The notes under the pieces: model-generated
Seen by the model: only the letters and a program-made list of their open reading frames with translations
The model's database searches: none
Told to the model about the DNA's origin: nothing
Source of the DNA: Phycomyces nitens
Lineage: Eukaryota > Mucoromycota > Mucoromycetes > Mucorales > Phycomycetaceae
Length of the DNA: 64,000 nucleotides
NCBI GenBank assembly: GCA_022702545.1
Contig: JAHRBC010000002.1
Span: forward strand, 806,001-870,000
Direction: 5' to 3'
Translations under genes and position numbers: made by a program
In this document: positions 1-35,215 of the stretch, piece by piece
Layout of the letters: the number at the start of each line of letters is the position of its first letter
Numbering within the stretch: position 1 is the stretch's first letter

Positions 1-585
1 TGATCTTAGCTCCAAATGTTCGAGGTGCTTTAGCTGCGAGTGAATGGTTTCGATGTCGTTTAATGAGAATGATAGTGAATCCGTTGGTTTAGTGTGATTT
101 TCAATCCCCAGTCGTCTGAGAGCTGGTAATGACAGGAGCAATTTAACAAGCTTATCCCCCGTGCCAGGTATATTGATCCTCCAAAAAGAGATGTCGAATT
201 CCCTCAGTAATCTCCAGGGGTGCCAATCAGCAGCCAATCCAAGGCTATTCTGGTTTATATAAATATTGTATAAACAAATATGCGTTATGTTTGGAAACAT
301 CTTTTGGAGTGCGTAAATATCTTTGTCCGTTACATCCATATGATGTCTTATATGCATATATCGTACAAGGTGTCCATTTTCTTGATAGTTGGGTCGATTG
401 TCAAGGGATGAGGTCAGAACACCATCCAAGGTCTCCCTGGAACGTATAACTAGATCAGAGCATAAGGAATTCTGGAAAATTTTGTTCCATGACTTGCAAA
501 CTAGACGGCAAGAGAATTTTTCCTTGTAGGAGAGGAAATTGGTTAATATGTCTAGGATTTCTTGAGGAAAGTCTGATAAGAGCAT
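1..585 (-). CDS. F-box protein, 3' part outside window
   Basis: The minus strand is open without a stop from the ATG at 585 to the window edge, giving the first 195 residues. It starts MLLSDFPQEILD and carries an N-terminal F-box (about residues 3-45, with CRLVCKSWNKIFQNSL), followed by leucine-rich sequence with LRRL and HLEL motifs. F-box proteins are substrate adaptors of SCF (Skp1-cullin-F-box) ubiquitin ligases. The leucine-rich part probably binds the target, which cannot be named. It is a close paralogue of the complete gene at 1999-3810: for example NDIETIHSQLKHLEHLEL here against NDIETIHSHLKQINHLEL there. No intron is needed in the visible part. Family assignment is good; the substrate and the 3' end are unknown. 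Confidence 0.85.
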   Translation of the reverse strand, partial: MLLSDFPQEILDILTNFLSYKEKFSCRLVCKSWNKIFQNSLCSDLVIRSRETLDGVLTSSLDNRPNYQENGHLVRYMHIRHHMDVTDKDIYALQKMFPNITHICLYNIYINQNSLGLAADWHPWRLLREFDISFWRINIPGTGDKLVKLLLSLPALRRLGIENHTKPTDSLSFSLNDIETIHSQLKHLEHLELRS

Positions 586-1998
586 AATATAAAGAGTATT
601 TTGAATGAATACTGGAAAGAGAAGATCTAATGCTTTTAAAGGCTTTTAATGAATTTTATATTATTAAAATGTGAGAAGAAAGGTAAATAAAAAAGGCTCT
701 GTTTGTAGGACACAGGTACAATCCGCAGTAAGTAGAGTCAAGACAAATAAAAAGGTTCAAAGCCTTGCAAATATAATAATGAACAATTATTTTGTTCTCA
801 TCAAGAATTAATGATATGTTACCTGCTTAAATATGTCAATATCTAGTCTCTATCTCTTTGTTTATTTGATCTTATTTTGGATAATGCATTCGAGGCTTAC
901 GTCGAAAAGGTGAGTATTAGAATATGTATTTTTGTACAAAAAGTCCTTTCATACCTTATGTGGCATAAGGATGAGGATTGTTGTTTTTGTGTACAGGGGT
1001 TTGTTTGCGAGACAAGATTGATTGTCGTACAATTGCCAGATAAATAAACGAAAGAAAAAGTAGAGCTAGGATAGCCATAAATACAAGTACTATTAAGTAT
1101 AGATGTTTAAATAAAAGTACACTACAGATATTAAAAGTAAAAAACAGAAAATATAAATGGTTATTCAAGAATATAAGAGCAGGAATATAAAATGAAGACG
1201 AGAGACTTTATTGGAGACAGTGATATTGGCCGTAACAAAAGGTACATTGACAAAAACCGTTCTACAATATGCATCTTAAACAGTTTCAGAAAATATTTCT
1301 TCAGCTGGAAAGTCAGTATCCCTTTAAAATATTGACAATATACATTAGAAAAGTAATACCACCTCAACGGTGAAATAGTATGTAGTCGAGGGATGTATTG
1401 GAGATATTTAGTAGATATATGGTTCTTGACTTTGACGATTTGAAAACTTGATAATATAAACAAAGATAAATATGTCAGTATCTTGACAAATACACTTCAT
1501 CCACAATTTAAAGATAATTTGCAAATTAAGGATATGTATCTTCATTTTTATGAATATGGTGTAGAGTGCCATATTGATAGATAATTCCAAAGATAGAGAG
1601 AGACCCATTAGGTCAGAGATTTTGAGCAATATTGTGGAAAGCCTTTATATGATCTCAATTTATCACTTGTAGAATTATTTGGGGGTATTTTTTTTCGACA
1701 AAAGGAGAGCCTCTACTGACAGCTTGAATGTTATCAAGGTAGATTAACAAGAATAATTCCCAAAACTAACCATAGCATATAAAGGTCTTTGTGGGTAAGA
1801 TGAATGACAGATTACAAACTGTAATATATATCAATAATGGTAGAGAAAAGGTACTAGAATGGCTTTTACTTTTAACAACCAAATGTCTTGGTATCTTCAG
1901 TTATACAATTGCTTGTTTAATATATTATATATGGATTATTTATTTTGTTTAATGCTTACTATATTTATTTAAAAAAAGCTTTTGTTACCGTACGTGAA
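586..1998. other. Intergenic stretch with duplicated upstream DNA
   Basis: AT-rich DNA. The part from about 655 to 1070 is a diverged copy of about 3890-4310, the region upstream of the second F-box gene. It contains one small duplicated ORF (956-1168, listed separately). Other short ORFs at 1161-1629 have no recognisable features. Confidence 0.6.
956..1168 (-). CDS. Small ORF, possible membrane or secreted peptide (dubious)
   Basis: A 70-codon ORF with a strongly hydrophobic N-terminal half (about residues 5-47) and a polar tail ending near HKNNNPHPYAT. Its tail matches the tail of the ORF at 4151-4348 (both contain QSIL and VHKNNN), and both lie in the duplicated region upstream of an F-box gene. 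The likeness may only reflect the DNA duplication. No family was recognised and no intron was seen. It could be a small exported peptide or a chance ORF. Confidence 0.25.
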   Translation of the reverse strand: MNNHLYFLFFTFNICSVLLFKHLYLIVLVFMAILALLFLSFIYLAIVRQSILSRKQTPVHKNNNPHPYAT

Positions 1999-3810
1999 TT
2001 AAGAGGTACTACTTTTATAATTAGCGACGTAACCAAGTTTTATCTTTGTATATCCAAAGACACATCTGCGCTTCCAACGCTTAGAAGGCTTTCGTATTTT
2101 AATATGGGCCCTTTCTAGCGTAACTCTTTTGTTTTCCTCATAATTTGAAAAGAATTTCATATTACGTGAGCCTCTTGCTTTTGAAATGGCATTCATATAT
2201 GGGGGCTCGGATGCGTAAAACCAGTCATAATGAGCCTTGATAGGTGCTCCAACGACATTTGGCCGGACATTGGGATCATATTCTTGTTTTGGAGGAATAT
2301 ATTCAACTGGTCGTGTAATAAGAGCCATGTTGACATTGTCTGTGCACTCGTTGTTGTCTTTTATAATAAATTGTGTATAATATATATTTAACCATTTTAT
2401 GTAGCTATAGGTCATGTCGATAAGCTGGCATCCGGGTGTTGTAAAGTTGCCGTATACTGATGATCCATATAAAAAGAACGAGCTCAAATCTCTGCAGTGG
2501 AATGAAAGAAATCGGAGAACATCTGATGTGATCTTTGCCCGGCTTACTTTGGCTGAAACGAGTCCAAATCTCTTTGAGGTGTAAAGTTCATCTCTAATTT
2601 TGATATCAGCGTGTTCGAGCTGAAGTGACTTTAAGCGAGGTGCCGAAGAGAGAAAGGTATCCAGCTCAACAGACGTAGGGCTGCTGATCTGAATTCTAAC
2701 CAAATTACAAAGGGTGTTCTCCATATCCATCAACTGTATTGGAACTGTATGTATAGATTTACAGTTTAGGTAAAATGAGTTAATACTCTTTGAATATTTG
2801 GTCAGGCAAGCTTCCATGATACGTTTGGGAAAATCACAGAGGTTATCAGGAGAATAGGCATCTATTTGGTTGATAGAAATTGCTACACGATCAATCGTCG
2901 TGTTCCTGGAATTCCATACTTCCCGTACAAGTGTATCGTCTTTACCAGCGCTATTGGTATATTGAATATCCAAGTTTTTTAGGTGTCGAAATACCAAAGG
3001 ATCCTTGAGAAATATTGCTATTGTATTGTCTCTTTGCTGTTCAGGATCGGATAGTGTCTTTGATGTACAAAATTCGATTTTGCGTAGATTGGGATACTTG
3101 TGAGCGAAATAGTATAACCATCGATGATCTGTGTTTTTAGATATTATTTTCAAGCCTCTCATTGATGTGGCTGGTGATACGTCTGCTATCTTTGCAAAGG
3201 CAATGTCAGAAATTGGCAATAGTATTGAATCAAGCTCCAAATGGTTGATCTGCTTTAGATGCGAGTGAATGGTTTCGATGTCGTTTAATGAGAAGGATAG
3301 TGAATCGATTAACAAATCTGGGATAGTAATCTCGAGTCGTCTGAGAGCGGGTAATGACAGGAGCAATTTAACAAGTTTATTCCCAATGTCAGGTATATTG
3401 ATGCGTGCTAAAGAGATGTGGAGTTCTCTCAGTAGTCTCCAAGGGTGCCAACCAGCATTTAATCCAAGACTCCTCTGGTTTATATAAATATTGTCTAAAT
3501 CAATATACTTGATATTTGGAAACATCTTTTGGAGTGCGTAGGTATCTTCGTCCGTTACATCCATATAATGGTTTACAAGCATATATCGTACAAGGTGCCC
3601 ATTTTCTTTATAGTTGGGTTGGTTGTCCGGGGATGAAGTCAGAATATCATCTAATGCATCTCTGGACTTGATGGTTATATCAGAGCACAAAGAATTCTGG
3701 AAGATGTAGTTCCATGACTTGCAAACTAGACAACAAGATATTTTGTCTTTGGTTGGGAGAATATCAATGACTTTGTCTATAATTTCTTGAGGAAAGTCTG
3801 ATAAAAGCAT
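1999..3810 (-). CDS. F-box / leucine-rich protein (603 aa)
   Basis: Intronless ORF of 603 residues from the ATG at 3810, starting MLLSDFPQEIIDKVIDILP. The F-box lies at about residues 3-45 (CLVCKSWNYIFQNSL). The rest has irregular leucine-rich repeats such as LPALRRLEITIPDL, LKQINHLELDS and APRLKSLQLEHAD. The C-terminal tail is basic (KPSKRWKRRC). Length and layout fit the expanded F-box/LRR family of Mucoromycota, which are predicted substrate receptors of SCF ubiquitin ligases. It is the second copy of a tandem duplication with the gene at the left window edge, about 3.2 kb apart. The target is unknown. Confidence 0.88.
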   Translation of the reverse strand: MLLSDFPQEIIDKVIDILPTKDKISCCLVCKSWNYIFQNSLCSDITIKSRDALDDILTSSPDNQPNYKENGHLVRYMLVNHYMDVTDEDTYALQKMFPNIKYIDLDNIYINQRSLGLNAGWHPWRLLRELHISLARINIPDIGNKLVKLLLSLPALRRLEITIPDLLIDSLSFSLNDIETIHSHLKQINHLELDSILLPISDIAFAKIADVSPATSMRGLKIISKNTDHRWLYYFAHKYPNLRKIEFCTSKTLSDPEQQRDNTIAIFLKDPLVFRHLKNLDIQYTNSAGKDDTLVREVWNSRNTTIDRVAISINQIDAYSPDNLCDFPKRIMEACLTKYSKSINSFYLNCKSIHTVPIQLMDMENTLCNLVRIQISSPTSVELDTFLSSAPRLKSLQLEHADIKIRDELYTSKRFGLVSAKVSRAKITSDVLRFLSFHCRDLSSFFLYGSSVYGNFTTPGCQLIDMTYSYIKWLNIYYTQFIIKDNNECTDNVNMALITRPVEYIPPKQEYDPNVRPNVVGAPIKAHYDWFYASEPPYMNAISKARGSRNMKFFSNYEENKRVTLERAHIKIRKPSKRWKRRCVFGYTKIKLGYVANYKSSTS

Positions 3811-4310
3811 AATAAAAAATAATAATATTTTGAATAAAGAGATGCTGGAAAAAGAGTCTTTGAATATTTTTAGGCGGATTAATGGCTTTTACCTTTTTCC
3901 AATTGGAGAGAAAGTAATGTCAAACGAGGCTCTGTTTGTAGGACAAAGGTACAATCCGCAGTAAGTAGAATCTAGACAAATAAAAAGGTCTAAATCCTAC
4001 AGATATAATAATTAGTGAACAATTATTTTGTTCTCACCAAGACTTAATGATATGCTACCTGCTTAAATATGTTAACATTTAGTCTCTCTCGCTATTTGTT
4101 TAATCTTATTTTGGATAATGTATTTGAGGTTTACCTGGAATAAGCGCGTATTAGAATATGTACTTTTGTACAAGTAGTCCTTTTATATCTAATGTGTCAC
4201 AGAGATGACCATTATTGTTTTTGTGTACAAGGCCTTGTGTGTGAGACAGGATTGATTGAGATGCAATTGCTAGACAAGTAAATGAGAGAGAAAATAGAGC
4301 TGTCAAGTAC
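3240..4310. repeat. Second unit of a tandem gene duplication (F-box 5' end plus upstream DNA)
   Basis: This stretch matches about 1-1070 at an offset that drifts from about 3225 to 3240. It covers the 5' third of the F-box gene, its promoter and the small upstream ORF. Shared non-coding words such as GGCTCTGTTTGTAGGACA and GTACAATCCGCAGTAAGTAG show that DNA outside the coding region was copied too. Confidence 0.8.
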
Positions 4311-6175
4311 AAGCAAATACACAAAGTATAAAGGTGCACTTTATCCATTTTTGTCTGCTAGTCAGAAACCAAAGTAAGAAAGGAAAGATTGTCATAGCAG
4401 CAATCCAGTTTATTGATTTAATTCCTGGGCTCAAAGTTTAATGCCTTTTGTAAGGTCCTCATAATGTCTTTTTTCCGTCATTTTTGCATGTTGGTAATTA
4501 CGAGAAAGAAAGCAAAAGGAACTGTCGCTAGCCTGTTCAAGTTGTACCAAGCTCCTGTTGGCAAGATTTATACAATATGGATTGATTTAGCATTGTCTTT
4601 GATTCAAAGCATATTCTTAATCGACTTTGGTTTGACAAATTTACAAGCTTATTGACTTTATAGAGTCTACTAACAAGCTAGATATAAGGCTGCTCAACTA
4701 GTTTACAAGTGATTCTAATAATGTAGAATGTGATGCTTAAAGAGAATGAACAAGTGTTGACAACCAAAGCATATCACTGTTGGCTAATGCGTAATCTTGT
4801 GACTCGCTTTCCAAAGTCGCTTTATTGCTACCTGCTCCCAAGTATACGTTGATATTAAAAATCGTTCCGCTTGCGGAGTTTAATCAAACGAAATTGAAAC
4901 AGATTGGAAAAAATGGATAGTTAAATCTAAAACCATATGTGAAGAGTATTGTCTCTCCATGCTTAATATAATAGCTTTAGAAAGTATAAATCTGTACTTA
5001 TTTTATATCAAATAAATATCTTGTTTTTCTTATTCAAGCTACAAAACCTATACTTTATGATTATATATTCCTGGATCGATTTGTTGGATGCATTGAAAAA
5101 ATGAGCTCTTTGGCTCTATATTATACACAGATAGATACAAAATACTTTTATCAGATATATTTATAATAAAATATATATTATAAACTAGTATATTACAAGT
5201 TATTCAAGTATGAATCTGCTTTAATTACCTGGTCTAAAGATATCCAGTATTTTTAGCTATAATGATCCATAAATTTGATTTTTTCGAATTTTCTTTACCC
5301 CTTTATTTTCAATGTGGTGCATATAGACGACGCGTAACTTGAAATTTTCCAATTTTCGTCTTTGTACTCCTCTTGCTCTTCATCTATTGGTCCATTAGTG
5401 TTCAAATTTGAATACCATCAAGGCTCATACTACTTGAGCATGTCCTTTCAGTTTGATTATTTTTCAAGACATATTGCAAGAGCAACAAGTGTTTGAATTC
5501 TGAAACACTTTAGCGGATTTCCCTGCCTCCTTAAAATGCTGGATTTTTTGTTTACATTTCCAAATATATCCATTATTTTCGCGACTTTATACCCACGCAT
5601 AATAAATCACTTGCAAAAAACCCCAAAGACGATTAAATAACTATATATAACTTTATTCTATATGCTTTTTTCAACTATTGACCCAGAATTCATATATCTG
5701 TGAGAGTAAATAAATGTGTCAAAGTTTGTGTCTGGTATTGTCTTATTGTTTTGCTATTTGACTTGAAGAAACTTCTTTTTTTTTAAAATAATAATAATAA
5801 TAATCAATAATCGAAACTTGAAGTTATCGCCTTTATAAAATCGTTTAGTAGATATCGATAAAAACAAGATACTTTATAAAGTATTCTATTTTAATAATAT
5901 GAAGCATTTAGTACTAGTTATGCACACTATTTAAAACTCTTTTATTAACGGTACTCAAGATTATATTCAACAATCGTGGATGTTTAAATTATAATAAAGC
6001 TAATAAACCCATATGACTATATTGTATATATCTCAAATATTAATATAATATTATTGTCAAGACTTTAACTTATCAAGTATTGGACCAGCCTTTGAAAATA
6101 TAATAGTTTGTGATTTTATACAATTGCAACCAAAGTAAATTAAATTTCATTATTTACCAAAGTGCTCTAAAGTAT
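3811..6175. other. Long AT-rich intergenic region
   Basis: About 2.3 kb between the F-box gene and the ECD gene. The left part is the duplicated upstream region. A 63-codon ORF at 4464-4655 (plus) has no recognisable family. From 4700 to 6170 there are only short AT-rich tracts, including an (AAT)n run near 5795. Confidence 0.55.
4151..4348 (-). CDS. Small ORF, paralogue of the one at 956-1168 (dubious)
   Basis: A 65-codon ORF starting MDKVHLYTLCICLYL, with a hydrophobic first half and a polar tail containing QSILSHTQGLVHKNNN. It occupies the same place upstream of an F-box gene as its counterpart. The reading frame is kept in the shared segment, but the C-termini differ because the stop moved. 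Coding status is uncertain. Confidence 0.25.
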   Translation of the reverse strand: MDKVHLYTLCICLYLTALFSLSFTCLAIASQSILSHTQGLVHKNNNGHLCDTLDIKGLLVQKYIF

Positions 6176-8293
<2,118 letters not shown>

Positions 8294-9360
8294 AAAAGGA
8301 CCTTCCTTTCTTGTTCGTCAATTCCAAAGTCACAGTTGGAGGGGGGGCCTCAATGTCAATATATACAGAGATTACAATACCCTGCCCCAAGAGTTTAAAT
8401 ACACAGTTTTGATGTACATGTAAAGAGACTGTAATGTAAACTCGTATTAAGAAGTTTAAATGGTTATTATTATCAAAATGGCCTGTTTTTTCTATGCACC
8501 TCTTTAAATAATATACTTGTAGTTTGTTTAAGCTTGTTTTTTTTTCTTGGTTTAAACAGAGACTTTTCAGCAAATTTTCCTCATTGCCGATACTCCCCCG
8601 TATCAAGACAAGGAACTGATGGTTTATGAGATATATAGATTATGTGAGGGATTTAATGATATATTTTACGGAGAAGCCTTTTTTTCGCAATTTATAGTTT
8701 ATACATTTAATATATTTGGCAGAGAAAAACAATACGGACAAGAGAAAAAGGAACATTATTTACCAGTAGTTTGTGTGGCACTAAACCATATTCAATTCAC
8801 ATTCACATTGAGCTTTTTGCCAAGTATAGAATATTTTCAGAGTCTTTCTTTGACATGTCAAGGCAAGTTTGAACCTGGAAAATCAAGTTCAAATAATGTA
8901 AAAAAAAAGAGTATTCTTTCTGCCATGTTGCAATATGCAATGAAAGGTAGTTGGCCATTCCTTTTATTGTTTTGATGGACAGCCACAAGGTATTCTGTAT
9001 AGTAAAGAAGTATTAAACTTTCTGTTATTGAGTAGAGTATTTACAAAGTTTGAATTTTTTGTATTAAGATGCAATCGTGCTATTATTACTGCAATTAATA
9101 AACATTCTTTTTGGTTTTTGTTTAATTCAGCCAAGTGTATAACAGTTGTCAAGTAGTTGGCAATTTGATGCATGGGAGCCATGTTTCCAGCTCATTGACT
9201 ATAGTATATTACAGCTTATAAGAAAAACTAAAAACGTAGCACTAATGTTCTTTTTCAAAAAAAGGTGAATAAGGTGCCAGACATGTGTACAGCCTATAAA
9301 GAATGGATGGCATACTAAATGATTTGTCAAAATCAATGGTGGCGGATTTTCTTTTAAAGC
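8294..9360. other. Intergenic region
   Basis: It holds the presumed ECD promoter at its left end. A 118-codon plus ORF at 8619-8975 shows no domain and AT-driven composition, so I do not call it a gene. Confidence 0.5.
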
Positions 9361-11600: not shown

Positions 11601-12234
11601 TTTATTTTTAGATTAGCCAACATATATATATCATTGTTGAGCGCACAATTTTTTGGTGCGATCAAATTCAAATAAAAAAAAACCAGCAAAACTTTACTTT
11701 TTAAAGTGACTGTACGTTGTTCCATAATAGGGACTATATTCTATATCTAATTCTTAATTCCAAAATACACATTCACACCAGAGTTACACTGTACCAGGCC
11801 AAACTGGGAGTTCTTTATTGTGTTACCAATAAATGTTACTCACACAATCTCTGATATATCCATGTTTTTTTTAATAATACAGCACCCCTGGTGCCAATTG
11901 ACACTATAATTACAGCGTCTTTGAATATTCTCATAGAGAGAGAAAGAGCGATTTATATTTGCATTATAATATATTGCCAAACAAAAAAGAGACTTTTCTT
12001 TTTGTTGCAAGAACCGTCTTGAATTGTGATTACGACACAACACGATACAAATGAAGATATGACAAATATGACAAATGGCGAATTGCTTCTGTATATAATA
12101 TTGTCAGATATAAGTAAAAGAGTTTTCAAAAGAAAATAAAAATGGCAGATAATGATAATAAATGGAGCATTTAGTTTCAAGAAACTTGTATTTTTACAAG
12201 TGATTTATAAAAGGATAAAAATAAAAAGTTCCAA
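11601..12234. other. Internal AT-rich part of the decayed Tc1 copy
   Basis: About 630 bp between the transposase remnant and the right-end homology. In the other family member the same interval is about 2.9 kb and holds a reductase gene. Nothing resembling that gene is seen here. Confidence 0.45.
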
Positions 12235-12838
12235 ATTAAATATATCTTTAAGAATACTATAGACAGTTTTCTCTACTTTAGATTAGTTTTTGTTTGCACC
12301 AGAGAGAGCTACAACTATTAAGTCCAAAGAACTCTTACTGTAGCTCTTTGTATTGTGCAAAATATAAGTGGATCATTGGGAATCAACTCATTACTGATGA
12401 TTTGTGCCTATGCTTCTTTGTACTGGTCTCTTTTGCAGACAGATGAAAAAAAAAAACTATTGGATATTCTTTAAAGATTGCCAACTGTTTTTATCACTTT
12501 TATAAAGGACTTGGTTTCTCGACAGGCAAAGAAGGGTCGGATCCCTTGAAACGCATCATTTTGAGGCTGTTTTCAGCATTAGTGCTTGTTATTTATTTTT
12601 TAGACATTAGTGGAAAGTATACAGCAAGTAAATATGAGAGCAAGACATGCTAATATTGCAGAACTTTCATTGTACAGCACATTAACAATGCCATACGAAT
12701 GACTTGGTTATTCAGCAAATTTTGCATTTTATTGTCAAGGTGAGCACCCAAAAAAAAAAGGGCGGTTTCACTAGTTTTCTTTTTTTTTTTCAATTTTGCT
12801 GCGTTATTATTACTACGCGGCAAACTTAAATCACTCTC
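12235..12838. repeat. Right end of the Tc1-like element family, copy 1
   Basis: This segment aligns with 30110-30557. Both begin near TTTAAGAATACTATA, share GGGAATCAACTCATTACTGAT, CATCATTTTG and GAGAGCAAGACATG, and end with a short palindrome and the terminal repeat. The terminal 20 bases (12819-12838), read inward on the minus strand, are GAGAGTGATTTAAGTTTGCC, matching the repeats of the complete element, and are followed by TA (12839-12840). The palindrome arms are 12795-12804 and 12815-12824 with one mismatch. A (T)n/(A)n insertion separates homologous blocks near 12750-12790. Confidence 0.75.
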
Positions 12839-24797: not shown

Positions 24798-25345
24798 TTA
24801 ATGTATATTTTACATATACATAAGCTAAGTACAGATTAGCTGAGAGCTAATAAGGTACGATAGACGAAGTATAGCAATGCATCAGAATAATAGTAACATG
24901 GATGTTGAGTTCAGAAGCTTACTCCATCTAATATCTTAATGTGGTGAAAGATCCCACGTATCAGGAAGTCCAAGATCGTGTGCAGCAGTACATTGAAAGA
25001 GTATATAAAGAGCGGAACATTTTGTATCTTAATAAAGACAAGCTTATATACAGTCTCAAAGTACTCACTTACTGTCTATATCTCCATTATCATTTTTTAT
25101 TGTTTTAATACCCTAAAACACAGCAAATACAATCAGATTTATCTCTATGTATTGCTCTCAAAGAACCAATCTCTTCTCACTTGTCTCAAACATAGCTAGA
25201 ACTAAAAAGTATATAAATAACCTTTGAGCTTGATCGATAAAAAAATCAAGCGAACAACATCTTTAATAAAGGAATCTATCTGTAACTCTCTATCTGTTCT
25301 CCTGTTCAGTTCCTTGTAAAGATCGGTTCCTGACAGTTTGTTCGC
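24798..25345. other. Possible 5' LTR region of the gypsy element
   Basis: Between the MULE remnant and the gypsy coding sequence. AGTATATAAAGAGCGGAACA near 25000 looks like a promoter, and TG...CA borders could be placed at about 24940 and 25345 (TGACA). No second LTR copy is present in the window to confirm it, and no primer-binding site was recognised. Confidence 0.3.
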
Positions 25346-25786
25346 TTCCTAAAATTTCTCCTGCTATATTCTCCTCAAAGTCGTTTACTGCCCCTTCGGA
25401 TTCCTCAGATTCTTCTACCGTTGAATCAACATCTGACGATAAAAGAGATAAACCTCTCCCAGACCCTCCAGACCCTTACCCACCACTAACCTCTTCCGAA
25501 AACCACCTTGTTCTTCATGTCTCTCTGTCCTTTGGTGATACAAAAACTTATACACAATCCCTCGTTGATTCTGGTGTTCACAGCAGCTTTATTAGCGGAG
25601 AAATAGTTAAAACGTATAGAATCCCTACAAAAAAAAGCTACTCCTTTGCCCGTTTATGCTGTTGATGGCCGAGAACTGTATGATGGTGCTGTTGCCAAGG
25701 AAACTGAAACGATTATACTATCAGTCGGTAAAATTCCAGAAAGTCCCAACTTTCATGTTTTACCAATAACAACATATCCCATAATA
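25346..25786 (+). pseudogene. Ty3/gypsy retrotransposon, left part (Gag end / protease)
   Basis: The sequence reads a Ser/Asp/Pro-rich linker and then SLVDSGVHSSFISGEIVK, the DSG active site of the retroviral-type aspartic protease. A one-base shift in an A8 run near 25630 changes frame. It then reads LPVYAVDGRELYDG and PESPNFHVLPITTYPI. The sequence stops exactly at a TA (25785-25786), where the DNA transposon starts, and resumes at 30560. Most of Gag is missing at the 5' side. No intact element remains. Confidence 0.8.
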
Positions 25787-25806
25787 GAGAGCGATTTATG
25801 TTTGCT
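25787..25806 (+). repeat. Left terminal inverted repeat
   Basis: GAGAGCGATTTATGTTTGCT, preceded by TA. It matches the right terminus at 18 of 20 positions. Subterminal TTGGTGCAAAAA occurs twice within the next 60 bp (near 25831 and 25854). Confidence 0.85.
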
Positions 25807-25904
25807 TTATAATACACTCTTCCCGGAAATTATTGGTGCAAAAACAAAAATAAATTTGGTGCAAAAATTGAATATACCAAGTGGACCAAAAATTAAAGAA
25901 TTTA

Positions 25905-27241
25905 TTATAAACATTTTCGTTCTAAACAATCGTCGAATATGGATTGTGAATATCTACAGAACCCCTGAAAGTCACTGAGCAGTACGTTATTGCAAGCATC
26001 TGAGACCCTTGAGGTTAATGTTTTCTCCTCCAAAAGAGCTTTCCTTTTGAGTTTACTCTTCACAACTGACCAGAACTGCTCAATAGGGTTAAGCTCAGGC
26101 GGATAGGGCGGAAGATAGATGTATCCATAGCGTCTAGCCTCAATGTAAAGCTGAATATATCTATGCTTGTGAATTGGGGCATTGTCCATGATCAAATAAT
26201 AGCCTTTGAACTCGTTATACATATCCATCACATCCAATGTACTGGAAACAAAGTTGAAGTAATGCCCAGTAACAGTCCTACCTTTGCTTTTTTGATTCTG
26301 GGTAGAACCGCCTACTATCTTCCTTTTCTTGTAAGCTGCTATAATCTTTGGGAGCTTGAATTTTACATTAATCACACCGCCAGTAGATATGACAGCAACA
26401 ATGGTTGTCGTTTTGGCTCTTGTTTTCGGTACAGTTACAATAGCTCGAGTTCCTTTTAAAGACTAGGAATAATTGCGTTTTATGTTGATATGAAAAGCTG
26501 CTTCGTCAATGAAGATACAGTTGCTCATAAAATTTATGTCGGTTTCCTGCCAACGAGTAACTCATTTGTATCTTTCTTCAATGTTCTCAAAACCGTTTCT
26601 TTATATTGAATGGAAGTAAGCTCTTTTAAGCGTGAACTGGCATTTCTTGGTGAGGAAGTCGTGTAAAGCAGTATTTTGATTTCAAGGCCCATAAATTGGG
26701 CATTCAACCTCTCCATCATTTCCTCCAAGACAATATCTGGTTTTTCATCTACCATACCAACCACAAAATCTTTGTGTTCTTCGCAAAGCTTAGGTGGTCT
26801 TCCAATGGAACTACTATTCAAACCGCTTCTACTTTTCCATTGAGGTAAGTCTTCGTCGTTATCCAAGATTTCCACGCCTTTTTTGAACCAGTTTTGACCA
26901 GTGCTGGAAGATATATTGACCATTCTTCAAGCAGCACGAACACTAAATTGCTTCACATACACCCAGTAAAAAAACTTCTACTTATCCTCTTTTTTATATG
27001 ACCGATAACTTGTTTTTGCAACCGGTTCCTTTTTTTTGCTTTTCTTATCTTCTGAGCTTTCGAGTGTTTTTTTTTCCTTGACTTGTTTTTCTGGAGGTTT
27101 CAGCTCCGTGTATTGTTTGAAGTTTGTAATGTTGTGCAGTGGGTATTGTTCATTGTTCAATTCCATGTCTAGAACAGCTACTAGAATTCCCTCTTCGTTA
27201 TAAATATTTTCACCTCCATCTTCGTAAACAAATTGATCCAT
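25905..27241 (-). pseudogene. Tc1/mariner (IS630 superfamily) DD34E transposase, broken
   Basis: One ORF from the ATG at 27241 can be followed with interruptions. The N-terminus reads MDQFVYEDGGENIYNEEG and is followed by a Lys-rich stretch. A homeodomain-like helix-turn-helix follows (VKQFSVRAA, RMVNISSSTGQNWFKKG, then GRPPKLCEEHKDFVVGMVDE). The catalytic core has CIFIDEAAFHINIKRNYS (first D), YYLIMDNAPIH (second D) and PELNPIEQFW (E), with 34 residues between the second D and E. In-frame stops lie at 26978-26980, near 26925, and in the linker; one frameshift lies near 26680 and a TAG at 26463-26465 replaces an expected Trp. It cannot make a full protein. It sits at the left end, transcribed towards the left terminus. 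Confidence 0.82.
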
Positions 27242-27390
27242 GTTTAATGTTGAATGATTATTTATTTATTTTTTTGAAAAAAAAATCAGGAAAAAGGAAA
27301 TTGAAAAGTGTGTCAACCCTCTAATATCTCAGTTCAAAAGTTTTATTCAAATATTTGTATTATTACATATTATTCCATTCGTTTGGCTAC

Positions 27391-28518
27391 CTATAGATCA
27401 GCAACCTTGACTATTTGCTTTCCAAAGTTCCTTCCTTGGAGAACATCCAAAAGGGCCAGAGGGGTATTTTCAATTCCCTCGACAATCGTCTCTTTATAGT
27501 TGATCTTTCCTTCCAATAGCCATTGGGTACAGGTTGTTATGAATTCCTCCTCGTACGCCATGTTCTCTTTGTCTATGATGAGAAACCCGTTCATTGACAA
27601 TCGTTTCGACACAACATGTACAAGATTGCGCACTCCATATGGATTCTGGGTATTGTACTGAGAGATCATACCGCACGCAACAATACGTCCAAAATTGTTG
27701 GCGTGATCAATGACAGTCTCGAGCATGCTGCCACCCACATTCTCAAAGTATATATCAATACCCTTGGGGCAGAGTTCAGTCAACTTTGCATCCACATCTT
27801 CAGTCTTGTAGTTAAAGGCTCCATCGAATCCGAGTTTCCAGAGGTAATCAACCTTTTCGTCTGATCCAGCAGATCCAACTACATGGAGCCCAAGTTCTTT
27901 TCCAATTTGGCCGACAAGTTGACCAACTGCACCAGAGGCGGCTGATACATAGAGCGTTTCGCCTTTTTGGGGTCTTCCATATTTCTTAAGACTATAGTCA
28001 ATGATAAACAGGTTGAGAGTCATGTATAATTTGTTCGTATGTGATAAATAACTCAAGACTTACCCTACATATGCTGTAAGACCAGGCATACCCAAGACTC
28101 CTACATAATAGGACAATGGGAGCCCATTGATCTTGGAGTCATTGCGTACCACGTAGCTGGTCTCTGCATAAGATCCTTTGACATGCGAATACTCTTCAAG
28201 ATAACCAAGACTTGTTCTGCCGCAAACCAAATCTCCAGGGATGAACTTTGGGTTATTGGATTTAATCACAACCGCCATAGTGTCGCCCGTCATGACACTG
28301 TCGTACTCAAAGGCTGGAGTATAAGACTCAATTGCAGGATCACGCATACGGCCACGCATATAAGGGTCAACGGAAAACACCAGGCTTTTCAGGATTATAT
28401 CACCTTTAGGAAGAGTGGCATCAAGGTCGATTGTAGATTTGGATATCTTGATGGTTTCGCCAACCACTGGAAATTCGGTGGGAGGCTTTGTATAGATAAC
28501 TTGAGCGTTTGATGTCAT
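27391..28518 (-). CDS. NADP-dependent alkenal/enone reductase-like MDR protein (transposon cargo)
   Basis: Two exons, 28518-28064 and 27991-27391, give 351 residues. The intron is GTAAGT...CTATAG and phase 2 is kept. The protein is a full-length zinc-free medium-chain dehydrogenase/reductase: VFSVDPYMRGRMRD and MTGDTMAVVIKSNNPKF in the N-terminal catalytic domain, LGMPGLTAYVG at the junction, then the nucleotide-binding fold with ETLYVSAASGAVGQLVGQIG, GFDGAFNYKTED and GIDIYFENVGGSMLETVI. The closest known groups are leukotriene B4 12-hydroxydehydrogenase/2-alkenal reductase and yeast YML131W, which reduce alpha,beta-unsaturated carbonyls and help detoxify lipid peroxidation products. It has no stop or shift, in contrast to the dead transposase beside it. 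The exact substrate is unknown. Confidence 0.92.
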
Positions 28519-28999
28519 ATTGAGAGAGGTGTACTAATGGTGAGAAAATAGGGCATTTCAGGCGTATATTTATATGATTTCTTAAATTCATAAAATCTGT
28601 TGATTATTAATTATTATTATTTTGTACAAAACTGTTGATTATTAATTCAATACTTGCTTGCTGCTAACTTTTTATACATGAATCTTTATATCATCACACC
28701 CAAAGACATTTTTGTCGGGATTTTAAATGTCCTAGGAATAAGGTTTAGCTAAATATTATTTCTTATTTGGGATGGCTCACTCACACCTGGTGAAAAGAAA
28801 ATCTCAATTTGACAATTTTGTTTGGATTCCGCCATTTTTTGTATACCATTTATGGAACGCGCATAAAGTCAGCTTTTGTACATTTGTGTCCTCCAGATTA
28901 AAAATCTACTGCCTTTTATGAAATACTCAAAAATAGTTTTTATTTTATTTTATTTTTTATTTTTTATTGGGTAAAGATATTTACTTTGAAAAAATGAAG
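28519..28999. other. Upstream region of the cargo reductase
   Basis: Presumed promoter region, with TATATTTATATG near 28563 and a repeated TGTTGATTATTAATT (28600 and 28632). No gene. Confidence 0.45.
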
Positions 29000-29090
29000 G
29001 GAGCCAAGTAGAAATACTTGGTTGCTAAGTAGGGGTTTTTACTTGCTATGTAGGAATACTTACTTGCTGGGTAGGAGCTCTTACATGCCA
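29000..29090. repeat. 21-bp minisatellite inside the transposon
   Basis: Three to four units of the type TTGCTATGTAGGAATACTTAC follow each other from about 29018 to 29081. They create a repetitive minus-strand ORF (29268-28981) that I do not regard as a gene. Confidence 0.65.
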
Positions 29091-30110
29091 GATAAAGTCT
29101 TCTTGACTTACTAAGGACAAACGTAGGCCACCTATGAGGAGAACTGTATGAGCGAAAGAAAATAGTAGTTAGAATATTATTGTATAAAACACTTTTAGGT
29201 TTTAGAAAGACCTTACCATTGTAGTATATTGACTGAAAGTGTAGATAGACATTAGCCTGAAGCATCATAAAAGACTAGATGAACATAAAAATACGTGTCA
29301 ATGAAATGTTTGATGATGTGATAAATCTTTAGAGATGTTCAACTTACATTAACTATTTGAGCTTCTGACCTTGAGGAAAGCAACATCTACAACATAATGG
29401 CATCGGATTCGCCAAATTCATCTATAAAATGAAAGGACCAAATGACATAAAGAATTGTTGACTGAAAGACAGAAGAAGAAAACATAATTATGGCCAGTAA
29501 TAAATAGGACAGCGAAAGCATGTTTGACGAACAAGAAATATCAAGTGTGCTGTAGATGGTAGTTCTTTGGTAAATAGGTATAGAAGGTATATAGAATATG
29601 AACTTTCTATAAGAAAGTTTTCTGAATTCTTTGGTTTGAATCCTTGATTATGTTCCTTTGGTGCTCATGAGTTCATCCTTTGTTCTTTGAGTTCTTTGAG
29701 TGTTTTAGACACTCATATTGAAGGAGATGATGTTTTCTAATATGTTAATTTGTATGAGTTTAGATGTATTATACTCTTGAGATCAATCTAATACATATGT
29801 ATAATCTCTTGGATTTATTTATTCATTCTATATCTATATTCTTATTCATTCTATGTGTAATATTTTTTAATGAATATCCCAAGTCCTTTTTATGAACACA
29901 GCATTTCCATATTTATACTCTTTGTATAATATTCAATTCATTTTAGGAATATCGTATCCCCTGCCTATTTAAATAACCGAAAAACTTTGAAAAATTGTCT
30001 GAATATGAAATATTATCCAATAATCTTCTCAGAAATCGTAAAATTACTATATTCTGCTTCATTTTTTACCGGGTGTGAAGTCAAACTTAAACGATTTTTT
30101 GATTATTTAC
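29091..30110. other. Non-coding interior of the cargo transposon
   Basis: About 1 kb of AT-rich DNA with no convincing ORF. A direct word pair, GAGTTCTTTGAGTG and related TTCTTTG motifs, lies near 29650-29710. Confidence 0.45.
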
Positions 30111-30557
30111 CAAACTCTCTAATATGCCTTTAAGAATACTATAAACAGCCTTCTCTACTTTAGATCTGATTTTGTTCGCACCAGAGAGATATGTAACCAT
30201 TGTGTACAAGAAGCTATTAATGTAGCTCTTTATATTGCGCAAAGTATCATAAGTGGATCATCGGGAATCAACTCATTACTGATAATCTGTGTCTACGCTT
30301 CTTTGTACTGGCCTCTTTTAAAGAAGGGCTGAATTTCTTGAAACACATCATTTTGGGGCTGTTTTCAGCATTAATACTTGCTATTTTTTTTAGACACAAG
30401 TAGAAAGTATACAGCAAGTTAAAATGAGAGCAAGACATGTTAATCTTGCAGAACTTTTATTGTACAACCCATCAACAATGCCGTATGAATGGCTTGGCTA
30501 TTCAGCAAATTTTGCTGCGTAATAATAATAATAACGCAGCAAACATAAATCACTCTT
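30110..30557. repeat. Right end of the Tc1-like element family, copy 2
   Basis: Homologous to 12235-12838 over its whole length, with two gaps relative to that copy. It ends in the right terminal inverted repeat (30538-30557). The plus-strand ORF that seems to begin at 30437 is an accidental fusion of this end with the gypsy frame. Confidence 0.8.
30511..30543. other. Subterminal perfect hairpin
   Basis: TTTGCTGCGT (30511-30520) and ACGCAGCAAA (30534-30543) are perfect reverse complements around a 13-base AAT-repeat loop. The second arm overlaps the terminal repeat by six bases. A near-perfect version is present in the other family copy. The left end lacks it. It may be a transposase-binding or structural site. 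Confidence 0.7.
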
Positions 30558-30559
30558 TA

Positions 30560-33500
30560 ATTCTTGGAACTAGTTGGTGCGCTCGCCATGACCCAATAAC
30601 GTTATCCTGGAAACACCAAACTGTTTCTTTCCCCAGAATCTCTCAATATTCTTTGCCTTTTTCTGTTTGTAAAACATCTGCTCATGTTTTTGACTCCTAC
30701 CACTTCTCATCCGTCTCTGTATCCCCAGTATATGCGCCCAGTAATACCAAAGTTCCTGCTCCTGCTCCTGTTTCTTTTGCCTCTAGTCCCGATTCTGTTG
30801 CTCTTGTCCCAGTCTTCGATTCTGTTTCCTCTGCCTCTGTTCCCGTTGTTCCCGTTCCCGATTCCATTGTGCCCGATCCTGCTCCAGCCCCCATTGTCCC
30901 ATTCACTGCCAAAGTGGAAGTTCCTGACAAATATGTCGACCTGTCTTCAGTATTCAGTAAAGCCAAAGCTGAAATATTACCAGAACATCGTAAGTACGAC
31001 ATGGAAATCCAACTTACTGAAGGTACTATACCCCCGTGGAGGCCAATTTACAACCTGAGTGAACCAGAACTCAAAGCCCTACGAGAATACTTGGATGAAA
31101 ACCTTGGCAAGGATTTATTCGAAATTCCAAGCCTCCTGCTGGTGCTCCCATCCTTTTTGTGAAAAAGAAAGACAATTCTATCAGCCTCTGTGCCAACTAC
31201 CGAGGTCTTAACAAGATTACCATCAAGAACCGATACCCTCTACCATTAATCAATGATTTATTGGATAGATTGAGTAATTTCAAGGTGTTTACCAAGATAG
31301 ACTTTTGGGGTGATTATAATCTTGTTAGAGTCAAACCTGGTGGCGAATGGAAAACTGCTTTCCGCACCAGATATGGTCATTTTGAATATGCTTTAATGCC
31401 ATTTGGATTAAGCCACGCCCCTGCAACCTTTCAGCATATGATCAATGATGTGTTCAGAGACATGCTCGATGACTATGTTGTCACTTATCTAGATGACATA
31501 CTGATATTCTCGCCTGACCAGTCCACCCACGACATTCATGTCCATAACGTCTTGCAACGTCTTCTGGACAATAGTCTCCATGCAAAACTTGAAAAATGCT
31601 CTTTTGACCAAGAACAGGTTGAATTCCTTGGATATAACATTTCTCCAGCAGGAGTCCATATGGATCCTGGAAAAGTCAAACCCCTTCAAGAATGGCAAGC
31701 CCCAGATTCAGTCCACAGCCTACAACTTTTTCTGGAATTTGTCAACTACTATGGACGCTTTATCCAAGGATTTTCCCAAGTTGTGCTCCTTATGACAAAG
31801 CTACTATCAAAAAAAGTCCCCTTCATTTGGTCTGACCAGGCTCAATCAGCCTTTAACAATCTCAAGTCTCAGTTTTGTTCCGCACCTATCCTCGTCCATG
31901 CCAACCCAAACAAACCCTTTGTGTTCGAAACCGATGCATCTGACTTCACCATAGGCGCAGTATTGTCCCAGATTGGCCAAGATAATCTTCTTCAGCCTGT
32001 TGCCTTCTTCTCTCAAAAATTCCTACCAACCGAAATAAATTACGAAATCTATGACAAGGAAATGCTTGCCATCGTCGACGCTTTCGAAACATGGCGACAC
32101 CATCTCGTTGGTGCTCAACATCAAGTAACCGTTTTTACTGACCACAAGAATTTGGAATGCTTTACCACCACCCGAAATTTCAACCGTCGCCAAGTTCGAT
32201 GGTCTCTGTTCCTTGCCGACTTCGACTTTGCTATCATATACCACCCAGGTCATATGTAAGGTAAGCCAGATTCATTGTCTCGCCGCCCGGAATACTCGCT
32301 AAAAGGAGAAGATGAAGTCTTGGAGACTCAAAATCGTGCTTTATTAAAACCTCAACAGTTTATTGTGGCAGCAACGACATTTTGTTCACAGACCCAACCA
32401 ATCATGACGATGATCAAGAATGCCACAGTCAATGATACCAAAGCCCAAGAAATCATTGTTAGTATCTCTCCAGACTCAGAATTATCCATACAACAAGGAA
32501 TCATCTACAAAGACAATCGCATTTATGTCCCCGAGGGTTCCTGTCGAATAGAAGTCATGAAGTCTAGACATGATGACTTGCTCGCTGGACCTTTTGGGAT
32601 GCAAGAACTCAAGATCGGGTATCCAGAACATACTGATGGCCTGGACTATGGAAATATCTCAAAGACTATGTGGCAACATGCGAAATATTCTGCAGAAGCA
32701 AAACATCTCGCCGTGTCAAATACGGTCAATTAATGCCATTATCTGTCCCAAAGCAACCTTGGTCTTCAGTCTCCCTGGATTTCATTACCGACTTGCCTCA
32801 ATCCGGATCCTTTGATAGTGTCATGGTGGTAGTAGACTGACTATCAAAAATGGCACACTTCATCCCTTGCAACAAATCAATTTCTGCCATAGAAACAGTG
32901 GGCTTGTTCTTAGCAAATGTGGTTCGTCTCCATGGAGTCCCTCTTGACATAGTCTCTGATCGTGGTCCTCAATTTGTATCCCGATTCTGGAGATCATTCC
33001 ACAAATGCCTTGGTACAACAACATCCTTGCCAATTGCCTTCCACCCAGAGTCTGATGGTCAAAGAGAACGAGTCAACCAGATACTTGAACAGAATCTCCG
33101 TTGTTATACAAACTATGCTCAAAACAACTGGACAAGGCTACTTCCATTGGCAGAATTTGCATATAATAATTCAGTACACACTGCAACCAAGCACAGCCAC
33201 TTTGTCGCCAACTACAGATTCAACTCCAGGCTTGACTTTAACGATCCTGATGACACTTTAGTACCAACAGTCCGCGACAAAATTACCACCATGAAAACCA
33301 TGTTTGAAGAAATACAAGCCAACATGAAGAAAGCCCAAGAACAATACTCGATGTATGCCAACCAGTACCGTAAACCTGCCCCTAAACTCTTAATTGGATA
33401 TCAAGTCTGGCTGTCTAGCTCTAACATCAAAACCACTCGTCCCAACAAAAAGCTAGACTACAAACGCCTTGGATCCTTCAGAATCTTGGAACAAATCAAC

Positions 33501-33620
33501 CCTGTTGTATCTCGGATCCAATTGCCCCCATCCATGAACGTACACAACGTCTTTCATGTTTCTCTCTTGGAGCCAATGACCCAGAATGACTTGTCTGCAC
33601 GCCAGCAAGCTCCCCCTCAT
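30560..33620 (+). pseudogene. Ty3/gypsy retrotransposon, right part (RT / RNase H / integrase)
   Basis: Resuming at 30560, the frame reads ILGTSWCARHDPITLSW (end of the protease/linker block) and a Pro/Val-rich linker. A one-base shift lies near 31108. Reverse transcriptase follows with NYRGLNKITIKNRYPLPLI, FALMPFGL-type palm sequence (EYALMPFGLSHAPATFQHM) and the YLDDILIFS active site. RNase H has FETDASDFTIGAVLSQ and FTDHKNLECF. A TAA at 32257-32259 stands after HPGHM. The integrase has the region ending VVVD, a TGA at 32838-32840, LSKMAHFIPC, then HGVPLDIVSDRGPQF and AFHPESDGQRERVNQ. No chromodomain or 3' LTR was found before MULE sequence begins at about 33640. The element is non-functional. 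Confidence 0.88.
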
Positions 33621-33639
33621 CCAGTCAAATCCGAATTGA

Positions 33640-35215
33640 CATGCTCAGAGCAATTGATAGATATGGCAGAAACTCTGAGAGAAAAGTCAACTATTATTAC
33701 ATTTGGAATTTGATGAACAAGGTAAGTCCCAAGAATAAATCCATGTTCATATTATTAATTATAATGTATATCTTGTAGATCAATAAGAAGTTGTATCATT
33801 TTGACAAAGACCAGATGGCTTCCTTCTTGATCTGGATTAATGTCAAACTTCTAGCTATGAATTTCTAAATTTTCAAAACAAATATGAAATATTCTCCTGA
33901 TCCATCTACATTTGCATGTGGATTCATGCCACCCATTCAGCAAGAGAAGATGGAAAGGGTAGCATTATTCTGCTTAGATGCAACACACGGGATTTCTGAG
34001 AAAGCAAATCAGATTCTATATACTCTTTTAGTTAGACATGAAGAGATTGGCAGAGGATGGCCAGTTGCCTACATGGTAACCAATGACAAAAGTGTAGGAC
34101 CAATTGTCTAATGGCTGCGGTTTTTAAAGGAGTCAAAGTTTCTTGTCAATCCCCAGCAAATAACCATTGATTGCTGCTCTGCTAAAGTACATACAATTCA
34201 AATGGCATTTCTAAGAACACAAATTAAGTTTTATATATTCCATGTAACCCAAGCATGGAATAGAAAGTTATCAAAGACTGTCAAGATCTTGGGTTTTTCT
34301 TCTGAGTCTCGGCTTCTTTGTGGAGAAATGATGCAGCTTCTTCAGGGCATTGTATATGAAGAGGATTTAAATGAGTTTTACCAGAAACTTGTTCAATTCA
34401 AAGAGGAGTTTAAGGACCAAGAACTTTTCTTGGATTACTTTGAAAGAAAATGGTGCAGTGAAGACAAGTTTAAGATCTGGAGTAGATCTTATCATGAACG
34501 TCAATTTTCTCACATGCTCACAAATAATTACATCGAATCATGGCATAACCAGCTGAAAACAGTATTCATGAAAAAATCGAGAAATAAGCGTCTATACAAA
34601 CTTGTTTTTATTCTGGTTCATGATGTCGAGTATTATCTTACTTAGGAATATGACAGGGTAATGTCAAACAATGGTGCAATGAGTACATTTACCAGGCAAC
34701 AGCGGATTCGGGAGATGGAAACTGAGGAGATCAACGATGATGACAGGAACTTATGATTGGTGCACCTGTAGCAGAGGATGGATACTGGCAAGTCCAATCT
34801 TTTGTATACCAAGATACTACGTATATAGTTGAGGTCTCGCACTCAAACACCATTATGTCATGCGCATGTTTTGATTTCAAAAGACGAACTCGACCATACA
34901 AACATATGTACCTTATGAAAATCCATACGCACTACCCTATATTATTTTCCCCCTCTTCCGCCATCGTTAATGATGAAATTCCTACAACACCTCCTCCAAC
35001 AACATCTATGCCTATCTAATCCACAATCCTTTTCCAATAGTGCATTAATATAAGTCAGACACTACACCATGCCAGCCAAGACCATGCCACATTATCCCAA
35101 TATGCAACAGAAGAAGAAGCAAGACATTTATATGATATGTACCAGCGCTCTCTTTATGCCTTCCAAAATCTAAAAGATAAATATGAAGTTAACTTTTGCA
35201 GATCTCACACTCAAC
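33640..35215 (+). pseudogene. Second MULE transposase, broken
   Basis: After a short exon and a GT-AG intron (about 33721-33779), the frame reads HFDKDQMASFLIWINVK, FCLDATHGISEKANQ (first D), VRHEEIGRGWPVAYMVTND, TIDCCSAKVHTIQ (second D), SRSYHERQFSHMLTNNYIES (E block) and VEVSHSNTIMSCACFDFKRR, the SWIM finger. In the finger the expected second Cys is Tyr (RPYKHMYL). In-frame TAA or TAG codons follow AMNF, GPIV and YYLT, and one frameshift lies near 34752. The N-terminal DNA-binding part is missing; the sequence abuts the gypsy integrase. Confidence 0.75.

Follow-up and report, generated by a model that had tools for sequence, protein, structure and literature searches.

In a 64,000-nucleotide stretch of Phycomyces nitens DNA (the window, C4:806001-870000), a 4,771-bp unit at 25787-30557, with 20-bp inverted ends and TA on either side, encloses a complete reductase gene. 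The unit is a single insertion with real Tc1/mariner-type (TA) ends, which belong to a family of miniature inverted-repeat transposable elements (MITEs) here called M, and it interrupts a decayed Ty3/gypsy retrotransposon. Our preferred explanation, which we hold with moderate confidence, is that the middle of an M element lying in the gypsy copy was replaced by filler that includes the whole reductase gene, and that this gene copy was then kept under purifying selection.

The boundaries of the unit are exactly those drawn in the preliminary description of this DNA. The arms (25785-25806 and 30538-30559) are 22 nt long and 91% complementary; without the TA they measure 20 bp and match at 18 of 20 positions. 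The uninterrupted site, CCCATAATTCTCGGAAC, is read through in two related Ty3/gypsy copies, one on C5 (L037 and L039, which are overlapping stretches of the same copy) and one on C9 (L038). When the window flanks are joined they align with L037 over 1,839 bp (91.3%) and with L038 over 1,074 bp (87.5%), spanning the junction in both cases, and the outer unit thus shows the TA target duplication of a Tc1/mariner-type insertion:

25785-25786, no strand: left TA target site, with the empty site in two gypsy copies (L037/L039 and L038)
30558-30559, no strand: right TA target site, from the window sequence and the empty site in the gypsy copies
25100-33718, plus strand: decayed Ty3/gypsy retrotransposon interrupted by the insertion, outer limits approximate, with reverse transcriptase and RNase H on the right

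The genome searched comprises 49 Mb in 11 contigs, and repeat counts from DNA searches within it are lower bounds, the best 40 candidates having been scored. The M end motif with its TA (a pattern of 22 bases, up to three mismatches allowed) has 55 matches, compared with none for the reversed control pattern. Because the gypsy copies run through the site and the end motif recurs in the genome, the outer ends are beyond chance, which settles the concern, voiced in the preliminary description, that they might be fortuitous matches. These terminal inverted repeats (TIRs) are common to a family. Ten convergent pairs of M ends have their two members within 20 kb, nine spanning 694-1118 bp and the tenth, in the window, 4771 bp; the other end matches are without a partner at that stringency. 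Among 15 fetched M copies, with ends called by tolerant match, TA is found on both sides in five, on one side only in seven and on neither in three; L021 and L022 are not independent, because the left flank is common to both. Among the loci looked at, none proved to have a transposase between two M ends, and L064, L065 and L066, where an M-like end lies near a transposase, are decayed pieces of inconsistent orientation. A second near-full M copy is present in the window at 11945-12838 (82% to L017).

The interior of the unit is a patchwork of several elements, in the order 30 bp of M, a Tc1/mariner remnant, the reductase segment, a 1.4-kb non-coding repeat, 41 bp of a second MITE family (T2) and 438 bp of M:

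25787-25816, plus strand: left end of M (20-bp TIR and 10 bp), 91-100% to left ends, with a blastn match in 12 of 15 fetched copies
25817-27321, minus strand: dead Tc1/mariner transposon remnant, left end missing, with its own right terminus ...CAACCCTC followed by TA at 27322-27323
25908-27019, minus strand: transposase pseudogene in that remnant, DD34E by our own count, five in-frame stops and at least one frame change
27336-28696, minus strand: duplicated gene segment (coding region with ~55 bp of 3' and 178 bp of 5' flank), copied from C4:759624-760949
28064-28518, minus strand: reductase exon 1, intact reading frame
27391-27991, minus strand: reductase exon 2 including the stop codon, intact reading frame
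28694-28780, no strand: fragment S from another inverted-end repeat, starting TCACACCC, 93% to L010
28781-30078, no strand: non-coding repeat R, with ends TCACACC...GGTGTGA, 91% to C6:2540742-2542041 and 79% to C5:7600942-7602138
30079-30119, plus strand: last 41 bp of T2, a TA MITE family, 91-96% to T2 ends in L058-L063, with TA at 30120-30121
30120-30557, plus strand: right part of M including the right TIR (30538-30557), 88.5% to L014, an M copy of 694 bp

No other M sequence is present in the unit, most of the first ~250 bp of M being gone. The closest sister copy, L014, has an equally short right half and ordinary M sequence where the window unit has filler; therefore the filler arose in the lineage of the window unit. 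The T2 end pattern has 36 genomic matches including the one in the window, and its reversed control none. Concealed remains of T2 or M at the left junction were considered and rejected, since the 110-bp stretch aligned no better than shuffles did (p 0.25 to 0.99, 500 shuffles). Against the entire interior, the left part of M outscored all but two of 60 shuffles and T2 all but four, which was taken as composition.

The preliminary description had reported an intact 351-residue, two-exon reductase gene, and this is what the window holds: 351 codons, a GT-AG intron (28063-27992), no internal stop, and the domains ADH_N_2 and ADH_zinc_N. The product is predicted to be an NADP-dependent alkenal/double-bond reductase of the medium-chain dehydrogenase/reductase (MDR) superfamily, which its domains and full length and the alignment of the parent protein to solved structures fit. 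The protein of the parent gene matches PDB entries named zingerone synthase, 2-alkenal reductase and double bond reductase (E 1e-88 to 1e-78) and scores 320 on the NCBIfam CurA equivalog, below the cut-off of 440. By sequence comparison the gene is a DNA-level copy of this parent, 72 kb away, with the intron retained: the segment matches C4:759624-760949 at 94.5% over 1,276 bp and 90% over 49 bp, the window copy having ~35 extra bp upstream, and the two proteins are 94% identical (22 of 351 residues differ). The parent protein is identical to CLU79DRAFT_697170 (Phycomyces nitens). In the same genome the parent stands without M ends and the copy within them. The parent is flanked by open reading frames (ORFs) whose translations look F-box/LRR-like in one case and RING-type in the other, and in the 9.9 kb fetched around it no M, T2, S-R or Tc1 sequence was found (blastn, E up to 1e-3). 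Homology with the parent's flank was considered for the 12 bp that separate the gene segment from the Tc1 terminus, and was dropped because the two differ at too many positions.

The suggestion that the gene has been kept useful is also supported. Between copy and parent the nonsynonymous rate (dN) is 0.029 and the synonymous rate (dS) 0.153, giving dN/dS 0.188. With three P. blakesleeanus proteins as outgroups, nine residue changes fall on the copy and seven on the parent, six being unclear; with two paralogues (72-74% identical) as outgroups for a nucleotide comparison, 9 nonsynonymous and 10 synonymous changes fall on the copy, and 10 and 9, respectively, on the parent, with 18 of the 56 coding differences unplaced. 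Under neutral simulation of half of the 56 changes, a mean of 20 of 28 were nonsynonymous (1st percentile 15), and 53% of runs produced a stop. The copy is free of stops and carries between 9 and 15 residue changes; the upper value, which places all unclear changes on the copy, touches the 1% limit. The copy has therefore been constrained about as much as the parent since the split. These comparisons support purifying selection on the reductase copy, which has changed no faster than its parent. Such constraint shows use since the split; it would show use since the capture only if split and capture were one event, the simplest but unproven reading.

The other feature named in the preliminary description, a DD34E transposase remnant near the left end, aligns at 25908-27019 on the minus strand and matches DDE_3 (PF13358, E 4e-17), with the spacing counted by hand on the alignment to an open relative, L056 (59% identity over 257 aa, plus 36% over 121 aa). 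The view that it is the element's own transposase is not supported: the remnant stops at a separate terminus followed by TA at 27322-27323, and wherever else the outer ends occur as a pair they bound a MITE of 0.7-1.1 kb. The terminus with its TA (CAACCCTC-TA, 27314-27323) occurs once in the genome (23-base pattern, up to three mismatches). No other near-full copy of the remnant was found in the genome, where six short matches (50-226 bp, 67-82%) are present, and among the 150 transposase matches scored the best other relative is 59% identical. L056 itself (G000:C1:9157700-9160000) is an open Tc1/mariner-like transposase (listed at 384 aa, the open frame being 427 aa), 75% identical to protein P0121, without TAGAGRG end words in the 2.3 kb fetched and possibly a lone copy.

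Taken together, these observations suggest how the unit may have formed. A non-autonomous, Tc1/mariner-type M element would have inserted at a TA of an old Ty3/gypsy copy, and its middle would then have been exchanged for filler. The likeliest route is gap repair during which the template switched, set off by a break or by an excision that failed, with nested insertions adding to the filler. The filler comprises the reductase gene copied as DNA from 72 kb away, the dead Tc1 remnant, the non-coding repeat and the tip of the second MITE; with both M ends surviving, the outcome resembles a Pack-type element, in which the gene copy has retained its flanks and stayed under purifying selection. Captures in other TIR elements are usually explained by abortive gap repair of this template-switching kind, and the local parent, together with an apparent 3-bp overlap (TCA) between S and the end of the gene segment, fits template-switch repair. 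Also in favour of the proposed history, the interior lacks the greater part of both T2 and M's left portion, and the Tc1 remnant lacks its left end. The ends, the TA, the empty site, the mosaic, the parent and the constraint are observed, whereas the repair mechanism, the order of events and a present function of the copy are inferred from them.

Several points weigh against this reading. No intermediate was seen, and the order of events is given by parsimony. The private branch of the interrupted gypsy copy (101 of 1,068 sites) is too long to date the insertion and so offers no lever on that order; a pair of long terminal repeats, looked for in the same gypsy copy for dating, was not found. 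Several pieces are similarly diverged from their nearest relatives, the right half of M at 40 of 436 aligned sites, the non-coding gene flanks and intron at 24 of 274 relative to the parent, and R by 9.3%; with all three at about 9%, dating does not tell whether the capture preceded or followed the insertion. Finally, the constraint may predate the capture only, if the gene came by way of a lost intermediate copy.

In the main rival the capture came first and the unit was transported whole: M would have captured the reductase elsewhere, and an M-type transposase acting in trans would have delivered the entire 4.8 kb to the gypsy copy, making it a Pack-mariner that bears a complete gene. We regard this as possible, though clearly less probable than replacement in place. 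The perfect outer structure and the precise empty site around the entire unit are what it predicts, and engineered Stowaway MITEs have been described as carrying cargo genes in yeast (PMC3660474). However, the unit is a single copy, none of the nine other paired M copies exceeds 1,118 bp, and the 9.9 kb fetched around the parent showed none of the sequences that accompany the copy (blastn, E up to 1e-3). A search of the same genome for the ends and the reductase, as the preliminary description had proposed, yielded no other paired M copy large enough to hold the gene; because none could hold it, movement of the gene with the element is not demonstrated. The claim of a transposon carrying a gene therefore survives in part: host-gene DNA does lie between the TIRs, with its parent elsewhere, but the genome holds no further copies with the gene, and carriage as cargo, with one copy at one site, is unproven.

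It is unlikely that the carrier was instead a T2 element holding the reductase and nested at a TA inside M, with one later deletion removing the left ends of T2 and of the Tc1 remnant along with M's left part. The T2 right terminus is followed by TA and M sequence at 30119-30121, and under this nested arrangement all the parts missing from the interior would be contiguous. However, the T2 left end was not found in the interior, and in four of six fetched T2 copies a left-end match lies ~210-445 bp away (~850 bp in one, none in one), large T2 copies not having been searched for.

It is very improbable that the gene was merely duplicated into a transposon graveyard with unrelated outer ends: the neighbourhood is prone to duplication, the region adjoining the parent being copied at window 1-869 and 1469-4101, but the gene sits between the halves of one insertion with a precise TA empty site and gypsy sequence continuing on both sides. 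Those two copies (89% and 79%, respectively), of a region that holds the F-box/LRR-like ORF, lie ~50 kb further along. Delivery of the reductase by one block duplication together with its neighbour gene was rejected, as order and orientation do not fit.

At window 33850-34980, downstream of the coding part of the gypsy copy, the sequence looks, judged by eye only, like a decayed MULE/FAR1-like transposase. Elsewhere in the genome some Tc1/mariner transposases form inverted pairs of equal score. In L069 (G000:C6:6505700-6515650) the element at 1822-9097 has arms of 2,216 bp that match at 99.7% and both contain an open transposase ORF of 300 aa (DDE_3 in the one scanned), and the spacer between them holds a second gene. 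This gene recurs, 97-99% alike, between the two transposases of the related pairs C1:6806811/6814277 and C4:2175764/2193721, which are known from the transposase pairs and the spacer gene, their arms not having been fetched. It has homologues in five other named Mucorales; its two main pieces gave no Pfam match, and its first piece gave only C2H2 zinc-finger matches below the cut-off. A second group (L057 418-4767, L067 489-4873 and L068, whose arms extend past the fetched stretch) has arms of 1.1-1.5 kb that are 98.7-99.9% alike. The ends of L057 and L067 are related and adjoin TA, reading AGTCATTTC in three of four and AATCATTTC in one of four; their transposases are without about the N-terminal third. 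The spacers of this group differ from one another and contain a distantly related protein segment. These long-armed elements may be a better case of cargo than the window unit.

That a mucoralean Tc1/mariner MITE took up a complete host gene with its own promoter and carried it as a unit, and that the gene is still under selection in its new place, in other words a working Pack-mariner, seems to us rather doubtful. If true, small TA elements would have a route to spread whole detoxification genes in early-diverging fungi. A whole gene that evolved at no more than the pace of its parent would demonstrate that captures of this sort can provide useful duplicates. As matters stand there is one locus. 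A limited, title-level literature search found no publication on the window locus or on cargo-bearing Tc1/mariner elements in Phycomyces.

Host genes are carried in fungal transposons by Starships and Helitrons, whose transposition enzymes, ends and sizes differ from those of the window unit, and captured genes in small DNA transposons are mostly fragments. The statement in the preliminary description that Tc1/mariner elements normally carry only their transposase is too strong in view of published cases. Pack-Mariner (Pack-TYPE) elements of rice capture gene DNA (Gisby and Catoni 2022, PMC8903248), and growth by joining neighbouring insertions is described in the same paper. They resemble the window unit in their Mariner-superfamily TIRs, TA duplication, non-autonomy, internal host-gene DNA and low copy number; however, those described there hold gene pieces of 58-280 bp and single exons, whereas the window unit, in a mucoralean fungus and seen once, holds a whole gene with intron and flanks. 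A Tc1/Mariner family of Pyrenophora tritici-repentis (Manning et al. 2013, PMC3538342) likewise has a captured ORF between Tc1/Mariner ends in a fungus, but its spread is evident from 46 reported members, 31 of them almost identical, compared with one copy here. Mariner elements with Fanzor (Bao and Jurka 2013, PMC3627910) also hold a non-transposase gene within Mariner TIRs with TA; Fanzor is described from transposons of several superfamilies, whereas the window reductase is a copy of a local host gene. Gene capture by Tc1/mariner is therefore of a known kind, and a captured gene that is complete and constrained is unusual.

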